In this document: piece after piece, positions 48,584 through 55,904 of the stretch
Layout of the letters: the number at the start of each line of letters is the position of its first letter
Numbering within the stretch: position 1 is the first letter of the stretch
Source: Hyphomicrobium sp.
Lineage (GTDB): Bacteria; Pseudomonadota; Alphaproteobacteria; Rhizobiales; Hyphomicrobiaceae
Reading direction: 5' to 3'
Assembly (NCBI RefSeq): GCF_003987855.1
Contig: NZ_RXIZ01000015.1
Span: 318,778 to 382,777, forward strand
DNA: 64,000 nt
Made by a program: the position numbers and the translations under genes
Notes under the pieces: model-generated
The model's database searches: none
What the model was told of the DNA's origin: nothing
Seen by the model: only the letters and a program-made list of their open reading frames with translations

Positions 48584-50041
48584 TTGGCTCAGACGACAAT
48601 CAAAATTTCGTCCTGCCTCGCTGCGACTATCGTTGGGCGTCGCGCGCTGGCCGCAGTCGTCGCAATCGCGGTCGGATCGGCTGTGTCGGTTGGTGCCGAA
48701 GCTGAAACGCTGCTCGATACGCTTGCTGCAACCTATCAATATAGCCCGACGCTTGATGCGGCCCGTGCCCAGCAGAGAGCCGTCGATGAAAACGTAGCCC
48801 GAGCGAACTCTGGATACCGGCCGAACGCGCAATTCGGAGCTAATGTGGGGCGGCAGCGCGTCGGTACATTTACGAACAACGCCTCCGGGCACACGGTGAA
48901 CTCGCCGCGTGGATACTCATTTGACATCACGCAGCCTTTGTTCACGGGCTTTCAGGTGACAAACGCGGTAAACTCAGCCGAAGCGAGCGATCGCGCGGGG
49001 CGCGAAACGCTTCGCAGCACGGAACAGCAGGTTCTGCTTGATGCAGTGACCGCGTATGGCGACGTCACGCGCGATCAAGCAATCGTCAAATTGAACGAAA
49101 ACAACCTGAAATTTCTTGATGCCGAACTTAAGGCGCAGCGAGATCGTTTCGCAGTTGGCGAGGTCACGAAGACTGACGTCGCGCAGTCGGAAGCACGCCG
49201 CGCACTTGGACAGTCGGACCTTGATCAGGCGCGCGCCAATCTCAAGTCGAGCCGTGCCATTTTCGAGCAGGTTGTCGGCCATCCGCCTTCCAACTTGGTC
49301 GAGGCCAATCCGAATACGCGCCTCGTGCCGCGCTCACTCGAAGACGCGGTCGCGATTGGAACGAAAGAGAATCCAATAGTGGTGAACGCGCTCTACTCAG
49401 AGCAGGCGGCGCGCTACAACGTCGATCAAATCCGTGGCCAGTTGCTGCCGCAGGCGCAACTTCAGGGAAATTACTCGGATCAGTACGACCCATCCGAAGG
49501 CATTGATCGCGGCACAACGGCATCCATCGTTGCCAGCGTTACGGTGCCCCTTTACGCAAACGGCGGCGAGGTATTTGCGCAGGTGCGGCAGGCGAAGCAC
49601 CAGCACGTTGCTGCTCTCCAGCAAATCGAGGTTCAGCGCGCCGCTGCTCAGTCCCAGGTCGTCCAGGCTTGGTCACAGCTCGTCGGCTTCAAGGCTCAGG
49701 CTGAGTCCGACAAGGCGTCGATCGTCGCGAACACCACCGCTTTGAACGGTGTGCGTGAAGAAGAGCGCGTCGGACAGCGTACCGTTCTCGACGTGTTAAA
49801 CGCCCAGCAGGAACTCCTGCAGTCGCAGGTCAATCTTGAGACGACGAAGCGCAATATACTTGTCGCGTCTTACACGTTGGTCTCGGCCATCGGCCGCCTG
49901 AGCGTCTCTGAGGTAGGTGCTGCAACTGCCGTCTATGACCCGCAGGTCCATTACCAGCAGGTTCGTAACAAGTGGTGGGGCATCGACATCACGCATGGCG
50001 ACGGCCGCCAGGAGCACATGGATGTGACTCCGGTTAAGTGA
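48584..50041 (+). CDS. tolC: TolC-family outer membrane efflux channel
   Basis: This 485-aa protein begins at TTG 48584 with aggtga at good spacing; no in-frame ATG fits. The signal region ALAAVVAIAVGSAVSVGAEAE is followed by LLDTLAATYQYSPTLDAARAQQRAVDENV, YSFDITQPLFTGFQ and RFAVGEVTKTDVAQSEARR. The second half-repeat begins near VNALYSEQAARYNVDQ and includes VGQRTVLDVLNAQQELLQ. These are TolC hallmarks: an outer membrane beta-barrel with a periplasmic alpha-barrel trimer. It would serve type I secretion or RND pumps encoded elsewhere. Confidence 0.92.
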   Translation: MAQTTIKISSCLAATIVGRRALAAVVAIAVGSAVSVGAEAETLLDTLAATYQYSPTLDAARAQQRAVDENVARANSGYRPNAQFGANVGRQRVGTFTNNASGHTVNSPRGYSFDITQPLFTGFQVTNAVNSAEASDRAGRETLRSTEQQVLLDAVTAYGDVTRDQAIVKLNENNLKFLDAELKAQRDRFAVGEVTKTDVAQSEARRALGQSDLDQARANLKSSRAIFEQVVGHPPSNLVEANPNTRLVPRSLEDAVAIGTKENPIVVNALYSEQAARYNVDQIRGQLLPQAQLQGNYSDQYDPSEGIDRGTTASIVASVTVPLYANGGEVFAQVRQAKHQHVAALQQIEVQRAAAQSQVVQAWSQLVGFKAQAESDKASIVANTTALNGVREEERVGQRTVLDVLNAQQELLQSQVNLETTKRNILVASYTLVSAIGRLSVSEVGAATAVYDPQVHYQQVRNKWWGIDITHGDGRQEHMDVTPVK

Positions 50042-50077: not shown

Positions 50078-50151
50078 GCCTTCTTTTCAATTGAAGCGTC
50101 CTCCCGCCGCCTTGAGAGCGCCGCTCTCCGGGGATAACTATGGCGGTGAAT

Positions 50152-50292: not shown

Positions 50293-51948
50293 ATGTCGAG
50301 ACTTGAATCCAACGCTGAGCCAAGCATGGAGGAGATCCTCGCTTCGATCCGTAAGATCATCGCTGAGGATTCTTCCGGCTTGAGATCGCCCTCGCCTGTT
50401 GCACGACCCGGCACGCCCTACACGCCCGCTGCCAGACCAACCCCGTCGACCGTTCCTTCCGCGGCTCCCACGCCGCAGCGCGGGTTCATGTCCCGCGAGG
50501 CTTTTCTGAAGTCCTCGCAGCCTGTCGATCCCGAACCGACGCAGGACACCTATGACCCATTGAATTCCGCCCGCCCCGCTCGATCCGAGTTAGCGTCCCC
50601 GGCTGGGGCCTCGCCGGCGAGGACCCGCCACGACGCGGGCTCGTTTGAACGCGAGCAGCGCGACACGCTCCGCCCTCGCGACGAATTCAAATCCAAGGAT
50701 GCGCCGCCTTCGAAGGAGCCTCATCATCCGGCTGTTTCGAAGGATCACGCGCATCCGCTTCGGCAGGAAACGTCTGGGCTGAGGAATGCCGAGGGCAGCC
50801 CAGCGACGAACACCCAAACAGAAGATGCGTCCATTGAAACGGTCGAAGTGGTCGCCGTCGAGGACGTGTTGCCGGCCATCAAGAATGCTACTCCTGCAGT
50901 TCTGAAGCCGGCGCCCGTGGCGGCTGCGACGTCGCCTGCGGCTTCCGATGCGGCACGCATCGAAGCTCAATTGTCGGAATTGCTCAGCGAGGATTTGAGC
51001 GCGCTTCGCCAGAGCCGAACGCAGCCTTCCGAAACGGTCATCGTACCGAGCCAGTCAAAAGATGAAGCCCAAAAGGCCGGTGCCGAACTGCAAAAGACGG
51101 ACGCCCCATCTTCGGAGAGCAGCGATCCCTTTGCATTCGATTTAGGTCCTTCGCCCTTCGCGCCGAAGCCCGAGACGGTGGCGCCGGCCCCGATAGCCTC
51201 GGCCGCTCCGGCGCCGCAGCCCGCTTCCGCGTTTCAATCCTCCGAACCAAAGATCGAGACGCCTGCGCCGCTTGCTCCTAGCGCGCCATCATCTTCCTCG
51301 ATCCCGTCCGTGTCGACGTTTGAGCAATCGCGCTCGGCGGCACGCCCGAGCTTTGGTGACTCCATCTACGCGGCCGAAGCTCGCTTCGGCGAGAAGAGCG
51401 GTGCGTCCCGCGAGAGCAATCCGCTCTCGAATGGCTTCCCATTTGCCGATCTCAGCGGGCCTTTTTCATCGCCCACCGATCAGCCCGCCAAGCCCTCGCC
51501 GTCGGTCGCGGCTGAGCCTGAGACGCCCACACATCGATCGCGCACCCCATTCGTCGTGCCAAGCGTATCCGCCACTCTTGGACCATCTCGCAAGCTCGAA
51601 CCTCTCTCGAACGCGTTCCAGCCTGCTCCGCCCCCGCCACCGCGCGCGCTCGAGACTTTCGCGCCGTTGCCAGAGAACGCGCCGGAGCCAAAGCCCATCG
51701 CTCCGCCAATCTCCTCGATGTTCAACCCGGATCCAGCCTCCCGGGCCGAGCCGGCTTCGCACACCACGCTGCCGGCCACGAGAAGCGAAAATCCACTCGA
51801 TCGCCCGATGGAAGACGCAATGGCGGATCTTCTTCGTCCGCTGTTGAAAACGTGGCTTGCCGAAAATATGCCCAAAATCGTTGAGCGCGCGCTTCGCCGC
51901 GAAATGACCGAGCGGCTGCTGCCAGGGCAGAAGAACTCGCAGGAATAG
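50293..51948 (+). CDS. PopZ-like polar organising protein (DUF2497), long form
   Basis: This 551-aa protein has the PopZ signature at both ends: N-terminal EPSMEEILASIRKIIAED and C-terminal MEDAMADLLRPLLKTWLAEN with MPKIVERALRREMTERLL. Between them is a very long Pro/Ala/Ser-rich, likely disordered linker, much longer than the Caulobacter PopZ linker (177-aa protein). PopZ forms polar condensates that anchor chromosome origins and cell-cycle proteins. A second, shorter homologue follows downstream. It is read with that gene and valS on the plus strand. Confidence 0.88.
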   Translation: MSRLESNAEPSMEEILASIRKIIAEDSSGLRSPSPVARPGTPYTPAARPTPSTVPSAAPTPQRGFMSREAFLKSSQPVDPEPTQDTYDPLNSARPARSELASPAGASPARTRHDAGSFEREQRDTLRPRDEFKSKDAPPSKEPHHPAVSKDHAHPLRQETSGLRNAEGSPATNTQTEDASIETVEVVAVEDVLPAIKNATPAVLKPAPVAAATSPAASDAARIEAQLSELLSEDLSALRQSRTQPSETVIVPSQSKDEAQKAGAELQKTDAPSSESSDPFAFDLGPSPFAPKPETVAPAPIASAAPAPQPASAFQSSEPKIETPAPLAPSAPSSSSIPSVSTFEQSRSAARPSFGDSIYAAEARFGEKSGASRESNPLSNGFPFADLSGPFSSPTDQPAKPSPSVAAEPETPTHRSRTPFVVPSVSATLGPSRKLEPLSNAFQPAPPPPPRALETFAPLPENAPEPKPIAPPISSMFNPDPASRAEPASHTTLPATRSENPLDRPMEDAMADLLRPLLKTWLAENMPKIVERALRREMTERLLPGQKNSQE

Positions 51949-52279
51949 TCCCTTGATCGCACGCCAGAACTCTAACTTCGAAATGTCTGCCATTTCGAAG
52001 CGAGGACGCCTGCGTCCACATGCTTCTGCATCAACAACAATTTTTTGTTGCGCGTTGCTTTCGCCACACGGTTGCCGCGACTGAGACCTAGCGTTGCCTT
52101 CAGCGGGGGGCCGCATCTATCGACAGCGTGAAAGATACGCCGCCCGTCACGTCACTGGGTTTGGCTGCACGCGCCGAGGCGAGTGCCTCCTGATCCAGCA
52201 ACGACGAACCGGAGGGGCACAACGGGGGCTGCCGACGCGGTTCTGCGATTTGAAGTTTGTACGCAGAAGAGGATGCGTC
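51949..52279. other. Spacer between the two PopZ-like genes
   Basis: This 331-base stretch holds no convincing gene; the upstream extension of the second PopZ-like ORF (from 52094) has no conserved sequence. It contains a 10-bp hairpin (listed separately) and an AT-rich caacaacaattttttgttg segment that may be a weak secondary hairpin. The promoter of the second gene may be here. Confidence 0.65.
51976..52000 (+). other. 10-bp hairpin after the first PopZ-like gene
   Basis: cttcgaaatg-tctgc-catttcgaag is a perfect 10-bp stem 27 bases after the stop. No T-run follows, so it is not a classic terminator. Confidence 0.5.
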
Positions 52280-53014
52280 ATGACAACGATGAACGGAGCA
52301 AAACACGACGTTGAGGACATTCTCGCATCGATCCGCACCAGTATTGCAGATCGTGCGCCAATGTTTGAAAGCGAGAGGCGTGACGTTCGTATCGCCACGC
52401 TGCGCGGCCGGAGCTCGATTGCGGAAGAAGCGGCTGATTTCGACCTGCCAGCCATTTTCAAAGCCTCGGCGCAACCGGCACCCGGAAGGCCAAATTTACT
52501 CGGGAGGCTAAGTGAAGCTTTGGCATCAGGTTCACCACAAGAGCGCGAGCGGTCGCGCACTGTCATTCCATTCGAGCCTGCGCATGGTCGTATGCTTGAA
52601 CCACCGCCCGTCGCACGCGACGTGAAGTCCGCGACCGAGAAAGCGGAAAACGAACACGACACCGCCCTCGCCGAGAGGATCGCTGCTCAAAATGACGCGT
52701 TGAAGCGCAACATGCCGACTTTCTTCGATACGCGCATGAGCCGAATGAGCGGCATGTCGCAACCGCCAGCCCCCGAACCTGTAGCTCCAGCAGCGCCGCC
52801 GCCGGCACCTTCGGCCGCCGCTGGGCCTCAGCCGCCGCGCCTGCCAGGACTTCAGCCGCTCCATGGCGATGGGGGCGATGTCGAGGATGCCGCAGCTCAG
52901 CTCTTGCGGCCGATCCTGCGGCAATGGCTCTCCGAGAATATGCCTAAAATCGTCGAGAAGGCGCTTCTGACGGAAACAGGCGGAAGCGGTTTGGGCGGCC
53001 CCATTCGCCGCTGA
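52280..53014 (+). CDS. PopZ-like polar organising protein (DUF2497), short form
   Basis: This 244-aa paralogue starts at ATG 52280 after gaggatgcg. It keeps the two termini of the family: HDVEDILASIRTSIADRAP at the N-terminus and EDAAAQLLRPILRQWLSENM with PKIVEKALLTETG at the C-terminus. The central part is variable and includes a Pro-rich tract (PPAPEPVAPAAPPPAP). It lies between the long PopZ homologue and valS. Whether both make condensates, or one restrains the other, is unknown. Confidence 0.85.
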   Translation: MTTMNGAKHDVEDILASIRTSIADRAPMFESERRDVRIATLRGRSSIAEEAADFDLPAIFKASAQPAPGRPNLLGRLSEALASGSPQERERSRTVIPFEPAHGRMLEPPPVARDVKSATEKAENEHDTALAERIAAQNDALKRNMPTFFDTRMSRMSGMSQPPAPEPVAPAAPPPAPSAAAGPQPPRLPGLQPLHGDGGDVEDAAAQLLRPILRQWLSENMPKIVEKALLTETGGSGLGGPIRR

Positions 53015-53135: not shown

Positions 53136-55904
53136 ATGCTTGAAAAGACATTTCGACCGGCCGACATCGAGCCGCGTATCAATTCCGAATGGGAGAAGGC
53201 GAACGCCTTCAAGGCCGGGCGGTCGGCATCGGGCGGAAAGAACGCCGCATATTCGATCGTCATACCGCCGCCCAACGTTACGGGCTCGCTCCATATGGGG
53301 CACGCTCTCAACAACACCCTTCAAGACATCCTCGTTCGCTTCGAGCGCATGCGCGGCCGGGATACGCTTTGGCAGCCAGGCACCGATCACGCTGGCATCG
53401 CCACGCAAATGGTGGTCGAGCGCCAACTTGCCGCGAACAAAGAACCGTCGCGCCGCGAATTGGGCCGCGATGAATTTCTGAAGCGCGTGTGGACGTGGAA
53501 GGAAGAATCCGGCGGCACCATCATCACGCAATTGAAACGCCTCGGCGCATCCTGTGACTGGAGCCGCGAGCGGTTCACCATGGACGAAGGCCTGTCGAAG
53601 GCCGTCGTGAAGGTCTTTGTGCAGCTCTACAACGAGGGCCTCATCTACAAGGATAAGCGCCTCGTCAACTGGGACCCCAAATTCCAGACCGCGATTTCCG
53701 ATCTTGAAGTCGTGCAGGTCGAAGCGCGTGGAAAATTCTCGTGGTCGAAAGACAGCGGCGAGCCGTTTGACGCGGCAGCGCTGGCGAAGGTGCTCGCAAA
53801 AGATCCGAGCGGGCACATGTACCACTTCCGGTATCCGCTCACGCAGAAGGTGCCCGGCTACGACAAGGATTACATCGTCGTCGCAACTACGCGCCCGGAG
53901 ACGATGCTCGGCGATAGCGGCGTTGCGGTTCACCCTGAAGACGAGCGCTATGCTGCGCTGATCAAAGCGGGCGCCAAGGTAAAGCTGCCGCTCGTCGGTC
54001 GCGAGATCCCGATCGTTGCCGACGAATACTCGGACCCCGAGAAGGGGACCGGCGCGGTGAAGATTACGCCCGCGCACGACTTCAACGACTTTGAAGTCGG
54101 CAAGCGCCACAACCTCGCGCAGATCAACATTCTCGATGCCTTCGGCAAGATCAACGACGAGGCACCCGAGGCCTATCGCGGGCAAGATCGCTTCGATGCC
54201 CGTAAGAAAATCGTGTCTGACTTCGATGCGCTGGGTCTGCTTGAAAAGGTCGAACCGACCGGTCACACCGTCCCGCACGGCGACCGCTCCGGCGTCGTCA
54301 TCGAGCCCTGGCTGACCGACCAATGGTACGTCAACGCGGGTGAGCTTGCGAAGAACGCCGTCGCTGCTGTCGAGAACGGCAAGACTGTTTTTGTGCCGAA
54401 GAATTGGGAAAAGACCTACTTCGAATGGATGCGCAACATTCAGCCGTGGTGCATCTCGCGCCAGCTCTGGTGGGGCCATCAGATCCCGGCGTGGTATGGG
54501 CCCGACGGCAATTTCTTCGTTGCTGCAACAGAGGACGAAGCGCGAACGCTCGCGCAAAAGCACTACGGCAACGATGTCGTGCTTACGCGCGACCCGGACG
54601 TGCTCGACACCTGGTTCTCGTCCGCGCTCTGGCCGTTCTCGACGCTTGGCTGGCCAGAGGAAACTCCGGAACTCGACCGCTATTATCCGACGAGCGTTCT
54701 GGTCACCGGCTTCGACATCATCTTCTTCTGGGTCGCCCGCATGATGATGATGGGCCTTCACTTCATGAAGGAAGTGCCCTTCAAGGACGTCTACATCCAC
54801 GCCCTCGTCCGTGACGAGAAGGGGCAGAAGATGTCGAAGTCGAAGGGCAACGTCATGGACCCGCTCGTTCTCATCGACGAGTTCGGCGCGGATGCGCTGC
54901 GCTTCACCTTGGCTGCCATGGCGGCCCAAGGCCGCGACATCAAGCTCGCGAAGTCCCGCGTTGAAGGCTATCGCAACTTCGCAACCAAGCTTTGGAATGC
55001 ATCACGCTTTGCTGAAATGAACGAATGCGTGCGCCAGCGCGACTTCGACCCAAAGACTGCGTCGCAGACCGTCAACAAATGGATCATCGGCGAAACCGAG
55101 TTGACCGCAAAGGCGGTCACGGCCTCGCTCGAAGCCTACAAGTTCAACGAAGCGGCGGGCGCGATCTACGACTTCGTCTGGGGTCAATTCTGCGACTGGT
55201 ATCTCGAGCTGATCAAGCCGGTGCTGGCCGGCGATGAAGACGACGCCAAGTCGGAAACCCGCGCCGTCACTGCCTGGACGCTCGATCAGATCCTGAAGAT
55301 GCTGCATCCGTTCATGCCCTTCATCACCGAAGAGCTATGGACGCACATGGTCGAGCACGGCGTGAAGCGTGACACGCTCCTGTGCTTGAGCCGATGGCCG
55401 ACACTCGATGGGCTCGTCGAGGTGGATGCCGTCAACGAAGTGAACTGGCTCGTCAACCTAGTTTCTGAGATCCGTTCGGTGCGCACCGAGATGAGCGTTC
55501 CGGCAGGCGCCAAAATTCCGCTCGTCATTGTCGCCGCCGACGAGGTCACGCGCGAGCGCGTCCGCCGCAACGACGAAACTTTGAAGCGCTTAGCTCGCGT
55601 TGACGAAATCGATTTCGAAGACGCGGCCCCGAAAGGCGCAGCTTTGATTGTCGCGGGGGAAACGACTGCCGCGCTGCCCCTGGCGGGCATCATCGACATG
55701 GATGCCGAACGCCGGCGGCTGGCGAAGGCCATCGAAGGCGCGGAAGGCGACCTCGCCAAGATGGACGCCAAGCTCTCCAACCCGCAGTTCATGGAACGCG
55801 CGAAGGAGGAAGCCATTGAGGAGGCGCAGGAGCGCAAGGCCGAACTCGAAGCTGACATCAAGCGCTTCTCGGCCGCGCTGAAACGCTTGAGCGACGCGGC
55901 CTAG
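53136..55904 (+). CDS. valS: Valyl-tRNA synthetase
   Basis: ValS (922 aa) attaches valine to tRNA-Val. The HIGH-type motif is in [18 protein letters not shown] (near residue 45), the editing domain follows ([15 protein letters not shown]), and the KMSKS signature is in [14 protein letters not shown]. The anticodon-binding domain and a C-terminal coiled coil ([21 protein letters not shown] to AALKRLS) complete the enzyme. Length is normal. The gene ends 8 bases from a convergent DUF2939 gene. Confidence 0.97.

Follow-up and report, generated by a model that had tools for sequence, protein, structure and literature searches.

The window analyzed here is a 64,000-nucleotide stretch of Hyphomicrobium sp. 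DNA. It carries two PopZ-like genes in tandem, popZ1 and popZ2, within the order pcm-tolC-popZ1-popZ2-valS, all on the + strand (Table 1), so that the tolC-popZ-valS neighborhood of PopZ is present. Both proteins score above the Pfam PF10691 gathering score of 27 (popZ1, 38.4 bits; popZ2, 29.9 bits) and are the sole PF10691 matches in the source genome, which confirms that the tandem pair of the original prediction is real. With the NCBIfam PopZ_fam model NF052660, they scored 65.3 and 29.5 bits, both below the curated 125 bits. A TTG start at 52094 for popZ2 was rejected as merely an upstream open frame. AlphaFold2 placed confident helices at both termini of each protein and mostly low confidence between them. 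A search by sequence for a solved homologue of popZ2 found none. We refer to popZ1 and its counterparts as L and to popZ2 and its counterparts as S.

Table 1. Features of the popZ1-popZ2 locus, with positions in the window
Feature	Position	Strand	Evidence or remark
tolC	48584-50041	+	upstream neighbor of popZ1
popZ1 (L paralog)	50293..51948	+	551 aa; canonical PopZ orthologue
popZ1 H1, EPSMEEILASIRKIIAED	50326..50367	+	canonical client-binding helix; AlphaFold2 helix 12-25, block pLDDT 88
popZ1 mid-linker helix, AARIEAQLSELLSEDLSALRQ	50944..51018	+	conserved in genus (alignment); AlphaFold2 helix 218-242, block pLDDT 79-83
popZ1 linker motif, DPFAFDLGPSPFA	51124..51162	+	alignment: L284, G285, S287, P288, F289 invariant
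popZ1 linker motif, FVVPSVSATLGPSRKLEPLS	51550..51615	+	alignment
popZ1 C-terminal H3-H4 assembly helix	51808..51915	+	PF10691 positions 33-70; block pLDDT 91-93
5' leader of popZ2, genus specific, ~80 nt, noncoding	52204..52285	+	nearly invariant; alignment, covariance model
popZ2 (S paralog)	52280..53014	+	244 aa
popZ2 H1, KHDVEDILASIRTSIADR	52310..52351	+	flanks diverged; sequence comparison
popZ2 linker motif FDLPAIFK (F[DE]LP[AS][IM]F[RK])	52439..52462	+	conserved across genera
popZ2 linker motif LLGRLSEAL (GRL[ST][DE]A[IL])	52496..52522	+	conserved across genera
popZ2 linker motif, RTVIPFEPAHGRMLEPP	52556..52606	+	own genus only
popZ2 linker motif, KRNMPTFFDTRMSRM ([KR]xMxxFxDxRxxRM; RxMxxFxDTRxxRM)	52703..52747	+	conserved across genera
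popZ2 C-terminal H3-H4 assembly helix	52877..52981	+	block pLDDT up to 94
valS	53136..55904	+	usual downstream neighbor; species marker in tree

Both proteins had been predicted to keep the N- and C-terminal PopZ signatures. This held for H3-H4 in both and for H1 in popZ1; popZ2 has a PopZ-type N-terminal helix with an altered H1 signature. The H1 of popZ1 is near-invariant in an alignment of 18 genus members. In popZ2, the ILASIR core is retained and the flanks differ from those of popZ1; KHDVEDILASIRTSIADR is the H1 of own-genus S, and most S proteins of sister genera retain PSMEEILASIRRIIAEE. As the ParA and ParB recognition sites of Caulobacter PopZ lie within its first 26 residues (PMC5182065), the divergence of H1 in S hints at an altered range of clients. 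The H3-H4 helices of the two proteins are identical at 22 of 33 residues (67%). H2, which would stand beside H3, was undetected in both, the PF10691 matches beginning at profile positions 33 (popZ1) and 37 (popZ2) of 75. A profile of H2 from other families of the order found nothing above shuffled controls in Hyphomicrobiaceae PopZ. H2 is thus undetectable family-wide, though most alphaproteobacterial PF10691 matches include it.

When measured identically, the linkers were 470 (popZ1) and 166 (popZ2) residues long. The predicted values of 430 and 170 were therefore close, with the first understated. The description of the linkers as Pro/Ser/Ala rich was also correct (Pro+Ser+Ala, 46% in popZ1 and 39% in popZ2), with Pro at 15 to 17% in the pair. 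Acidic and basic fractions were 0.12 and 0.09 in popZ1 and 0.13 and 0.13 in popZ2, compared to 0.26 and 0.04 elsewhere in the order. Linkers of Hyphomicrobiaceae PopZ are nearly charge neutral, and neither linker of the pair is of the acidic PopZ type. In the Caulobacterales, the linker is 93 +/- 1 residues long with an acidic fraction of 0.29, and longer PopZ linkers accompany lower charge (PMC9512792). The low charge seen here fits that trend.

Neither linker is featureless. AlphaFold2 predicted one extra confident helix midway along the popZ1 linker, at residues 218 to 242, and low-confidence helices over the popZ2 motifs. Three of the four popZ2 motifs are conserved across genera (Table 1), and a DNA-level pattern search for LPAIFK elsewhere in the source genome found none. 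Separately, tandem EPK-type repeats (KFEPKIEPKLEPK...) lengthen the popZ1 linker in the Hyphomicrobium facile subclade (L033, L035, L043, L047, and L049); the copy in the window has none.

Each of the 18 genus genomes, H. facile DSM 1565 among them, had exactly two PF10691 matches, so within the genus the refuting condition of the original prediction, a pair missing from close relatives, did not arise. Among 79 genomes of the family, the pair occurred in 7 of 23 genera (18/18, 7/7, 4/4, and 4/4 genomes, plus three single-genome genera), and two genomes had extra copies. The remaining genera carried a single copy, with some genomes lacking PopZ matches altogether. In a class-wide draw, 2 of 172 other genomes had two PF10691 matches, each on separate contigs. 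A ValS tree put all pair-bearing genera in one clade (49 rows) along with the single-copy genera g7, g44, g14, and g17. One gain followed by several losses is the simplest reading of this history, and the ValS tree cannot separate gain from loss. We looked for hidden S copies or relics in the single-copy genera, and neither the motifs nor the profile revealed any. At the single-copy loci, tblastn returned many low-complexity matches, with no convincing separate S copy among the matches listed.

Gene order differs within the pair-bearing genera. The order is tolC-L-S-valS in our genus and tolC-S-L-valS in g4, g12, g19, and g46, and every named locus that shows both genes follows this pattern. 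H. zavarzinii ATCC 27496, for example, has the pair in the opposite order to our genus. Most simply, these orders suggest that the genes were swapped on the lineage leading to our genus.

Two further arrangements were observed. Genome G031 (genus g15) carries four PF10691 matches, and the PopZ-like protein encoded at L055:6538-7818 (-) carries three H3-H4-type repeats on a single polypeptide, a naturally multivalent arrangement that resembles the engineered pentavalent PopZ of PMC9512792. One g19 genome has a third, divergent S-like PopZ away from tolC-valS (L079, G086:C12:48142-48714).

These Hyphomicrobium species bud, and the original prediction held that the pair fits budding and polar growth. 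Conservation across budding relatives is complete for the genus, but the close relative H. sulfonivorans S1 (L159/G081) has only one PopZ, whose linker is 621 residues long, and a requirement of the pair for budding was therefore not supported. One PopZ is likewise described in Hyphomonas neptunium (PMC6650430). With the pair limited to a single family, and there to 7 of 23 genera, a fit to budding or polar growth as such was not supported.

The three popZ2 linker motifs shared across genera were first seen in translations of the short gene of our genus and of the first gene of sister genera. In a tree of H1 and H3-H4 (68 columns), own-genus S and own-genus L each grouped well, but the S copies were not all united: genus S joined only the divergent S of g45 and g15, with weak support. 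This tree was rejected as proof of S monophyly because it is too short. Since it leaves genus S and sister S apart, S orthology rests on the linker, and we built linker-only profiles to test S identity independently of H1 and H3-H4. With a profile of the 18 own-genus S linkers, every one of the 18 S linkers from sister genera was recognized (E, 1e-14 to 8e-5), with no L linker above shuffled controls. Reciprocally, a profile of 13 sister S linkers recognized all 18 own-genus S linkers (E <= 1e-12) and no L linker. Linker profiles of L gave no mutual recognition across genera. Because S labels were first assigned by motif, the separation of S from L is partly by construction, but the reciprocal recognition across genera is not. 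S linker profile A3, which includes popZ2 among its sequences, gave popZ2 158.9 bits, and a profile from sister genera only recognized it at E 9.8e-16. Searched against whole genomes, A3 matched 34 of the 79 family genomes, only in the seven pair genera, with two pair-bearing g45 genomes below its threshold. Among 298 genomes of the order, it had no match in other families.

Purifying selection acts on both genes, usually more strongly on S: comparisons of near pairs gave dN/dS values of 0.05 to 0.19 for S and 0.17 to 0.24 for L. Together with the two matches in every genus genome, these values imply that the pair is not a product of chance. L carries the consensus H1 and occupies the tolC-valS slot that houses the sole PopZ of single-copy relatives. 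Judged by sequence, popZ1 is the canonical PopZ, and popZ2 is an old, specialized paralog in which the conserved feature is S identity and not unequal linker length.

The popZ2 gene also has a conserved 5' leader. A covariance model located it directly upstream of popZ2 in every genus genome (18/18) but in none of the other family genomes (0/61). Among distant genus members, its mean pairwise identity is 79 to 83%, compared to mostly 34 to 55% farther upstream, where one 30-column block reaches 66%. An internal stretch differs in length by single bases between members, and the leader is thus not coding. In the consensus fold, the Shine-Dalgarno GAGG lies between the stems TTCTGCG/CGCAGAA and GACGC/GCGTC, the latter adjoining the ATG. 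Tests of this fold found one compensatory change, a covariation score attained by 134 of 500 shuffles, and a fold z of 0.34, so the case for an RNA structure is weak. The leader could equally be a promoter or an operator. It had no Rfam match. The gap between popZ1 and popZ2 is 294 to 332 nt; no consensus sigma-70 promoter was found on its + strand and no CtrA-type site (TTAAN7TTAA) near either gene. Upstream of popZ1, a conserved inverted repeat GAGAGCGCCGCTCTC is followed by CGGGGATAAC (window 50110-50139), and 10 of the 13 genus members aligned retain a GANTC site 83 to 87 nt 5' of popZ1.

Taken together, we somewhat favor a reading in which L would be the core polar scaffold and S a specialized adaptor that co-assembles with it through H3-H4 and recruits clients of its own. 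L would self-assemble through H3-H4 and bind the usual clients via H1. Since H3-H4 is retained in S, S should be able to enter the L assembly. Its linker motifs FDLPAIFK, GRLSEAL, and RxMxxFxDTRxxRM would be candidate binding sites for its own clients, which S may recruit or position at the pole. The dose of S relative to L could perhaps be set separately via the conserved leader. A narrower form of this idea makes S a client-specific adaptor of a mixed PopZ condensate with stoichiometry set post-transcriptionally, the leader acting as a translational switch with its Shine-Dalgarno between two stems and one arm against the start codon; we regard this form as doubtful.

Alternatively, S might build a separate assembly at another site or time, such as the stalk tip or bud pole, unmixed with L. 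A leader of its own, the intergenic gap, and the diverged H1 are what such an arrangement could be expected to show. We nevertheless think it rather unlikely, given the 67% identity of the S and L H3-H4 helices over 33 residues and the finding that Agrobacterium PopZ H3H4 joins assemblies of the full-length protein, reaching the growth pole alone only with full-length PopZ present (PMC5686542).

The original prediction proposed a two-component condensate for asymmetric growth by budding, with properties that follow from how much the two linkers differ in length. In Caulobacter, PopZ condensates do respond to linker length (PMC9512792), and the inequality runs throughout the genus, with median linkers of about 460 (L) and 163 (S) residues; across the compared loci, own-genus linkers were 381 to 544 (L) and 178 to 267 (S) residues. 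However, the inequality is not conserved. Sister-genus linkers span 308 to 519 (L) and 207 to 349 (S) residues, or about 320 to 497 and 261 to 337 on a narrower count. They are near equal in some sisters (S/L, 304/320 in G095 and 308/325 in L145), and in G020 they are 331/497. H. sulfonivorans S1 manages with one long-linker PopZ, conservation of the S linker extends from its length to its sequence, and the rule for acidic spacers is not directly transferable to linkers so close to neutral. A length-based asymmetric condensate is not favored, and we consider it quite improbable. Finally, a redundant S that has no role of its own and persists through drift or as a dosage copy would suit its absence from the related genera g7, g44, and g17 within the same ValS clade but is very unlikely given its retention in every genus genome, its dN/dS, and its S-specific motifs conserved across genera.

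Returning to the adaptor reading, the two genes appear to divide labor between them and not to supply one scaffold in two lengths. PopZ is a model bacterial condensate scaffold, and the experimental literature we considered deals with a single gene and gives linker sequence little weight. A lineage with two scaffolds, one bearing linker motifs shared across genera, is a natural test for addressed information in PopZ linkers and for the way in which budding cells tell their several poles apart. A further caution is that linker length from one sequence is a poor guide to function. We found no report of a PopZ pair in Hyphomicrobium in the open-access literature searched, which does not in itself prove novelty.

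The proteins described here resemble Caulobacter PopZ (PMC9512792, PMC5182065) in their H1-like N terminus, disordered Pro-rich linker, C-terminal H3-H4, and PF10691 match. They differ in being two paralogs with linkers of 470 and 166 residues (Caulobacterales mean, 93 +/- 1), in linkers near neutral and not 29% acidic, in an undetectable H2, in the diverged H1 of popZ2, and in conserved linker motifs. Agrobacterium PopZ, an alphaproteobacterial relative, also has a long linker but is a single gene with a Pro/Glu/Asp-rich linker and an H2 (PMC5686542). That linker (PED, 241 aa) is implicated in growth-pole targeting, and a PopZ with H2 deleted still partly rescues growth; growth overall does not depend on H2 there (PMC5686542). 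Hyphomonas neptunium is, like Hyphomicrobium, a budding alphaproteobacterium, and its PopZ anchors ori/ParB at the pole and is dispensable for segregation (PMC6650430). It differs from the Hyphomicrobium system in that the PopZ described there has no S-type paralog described beside it.
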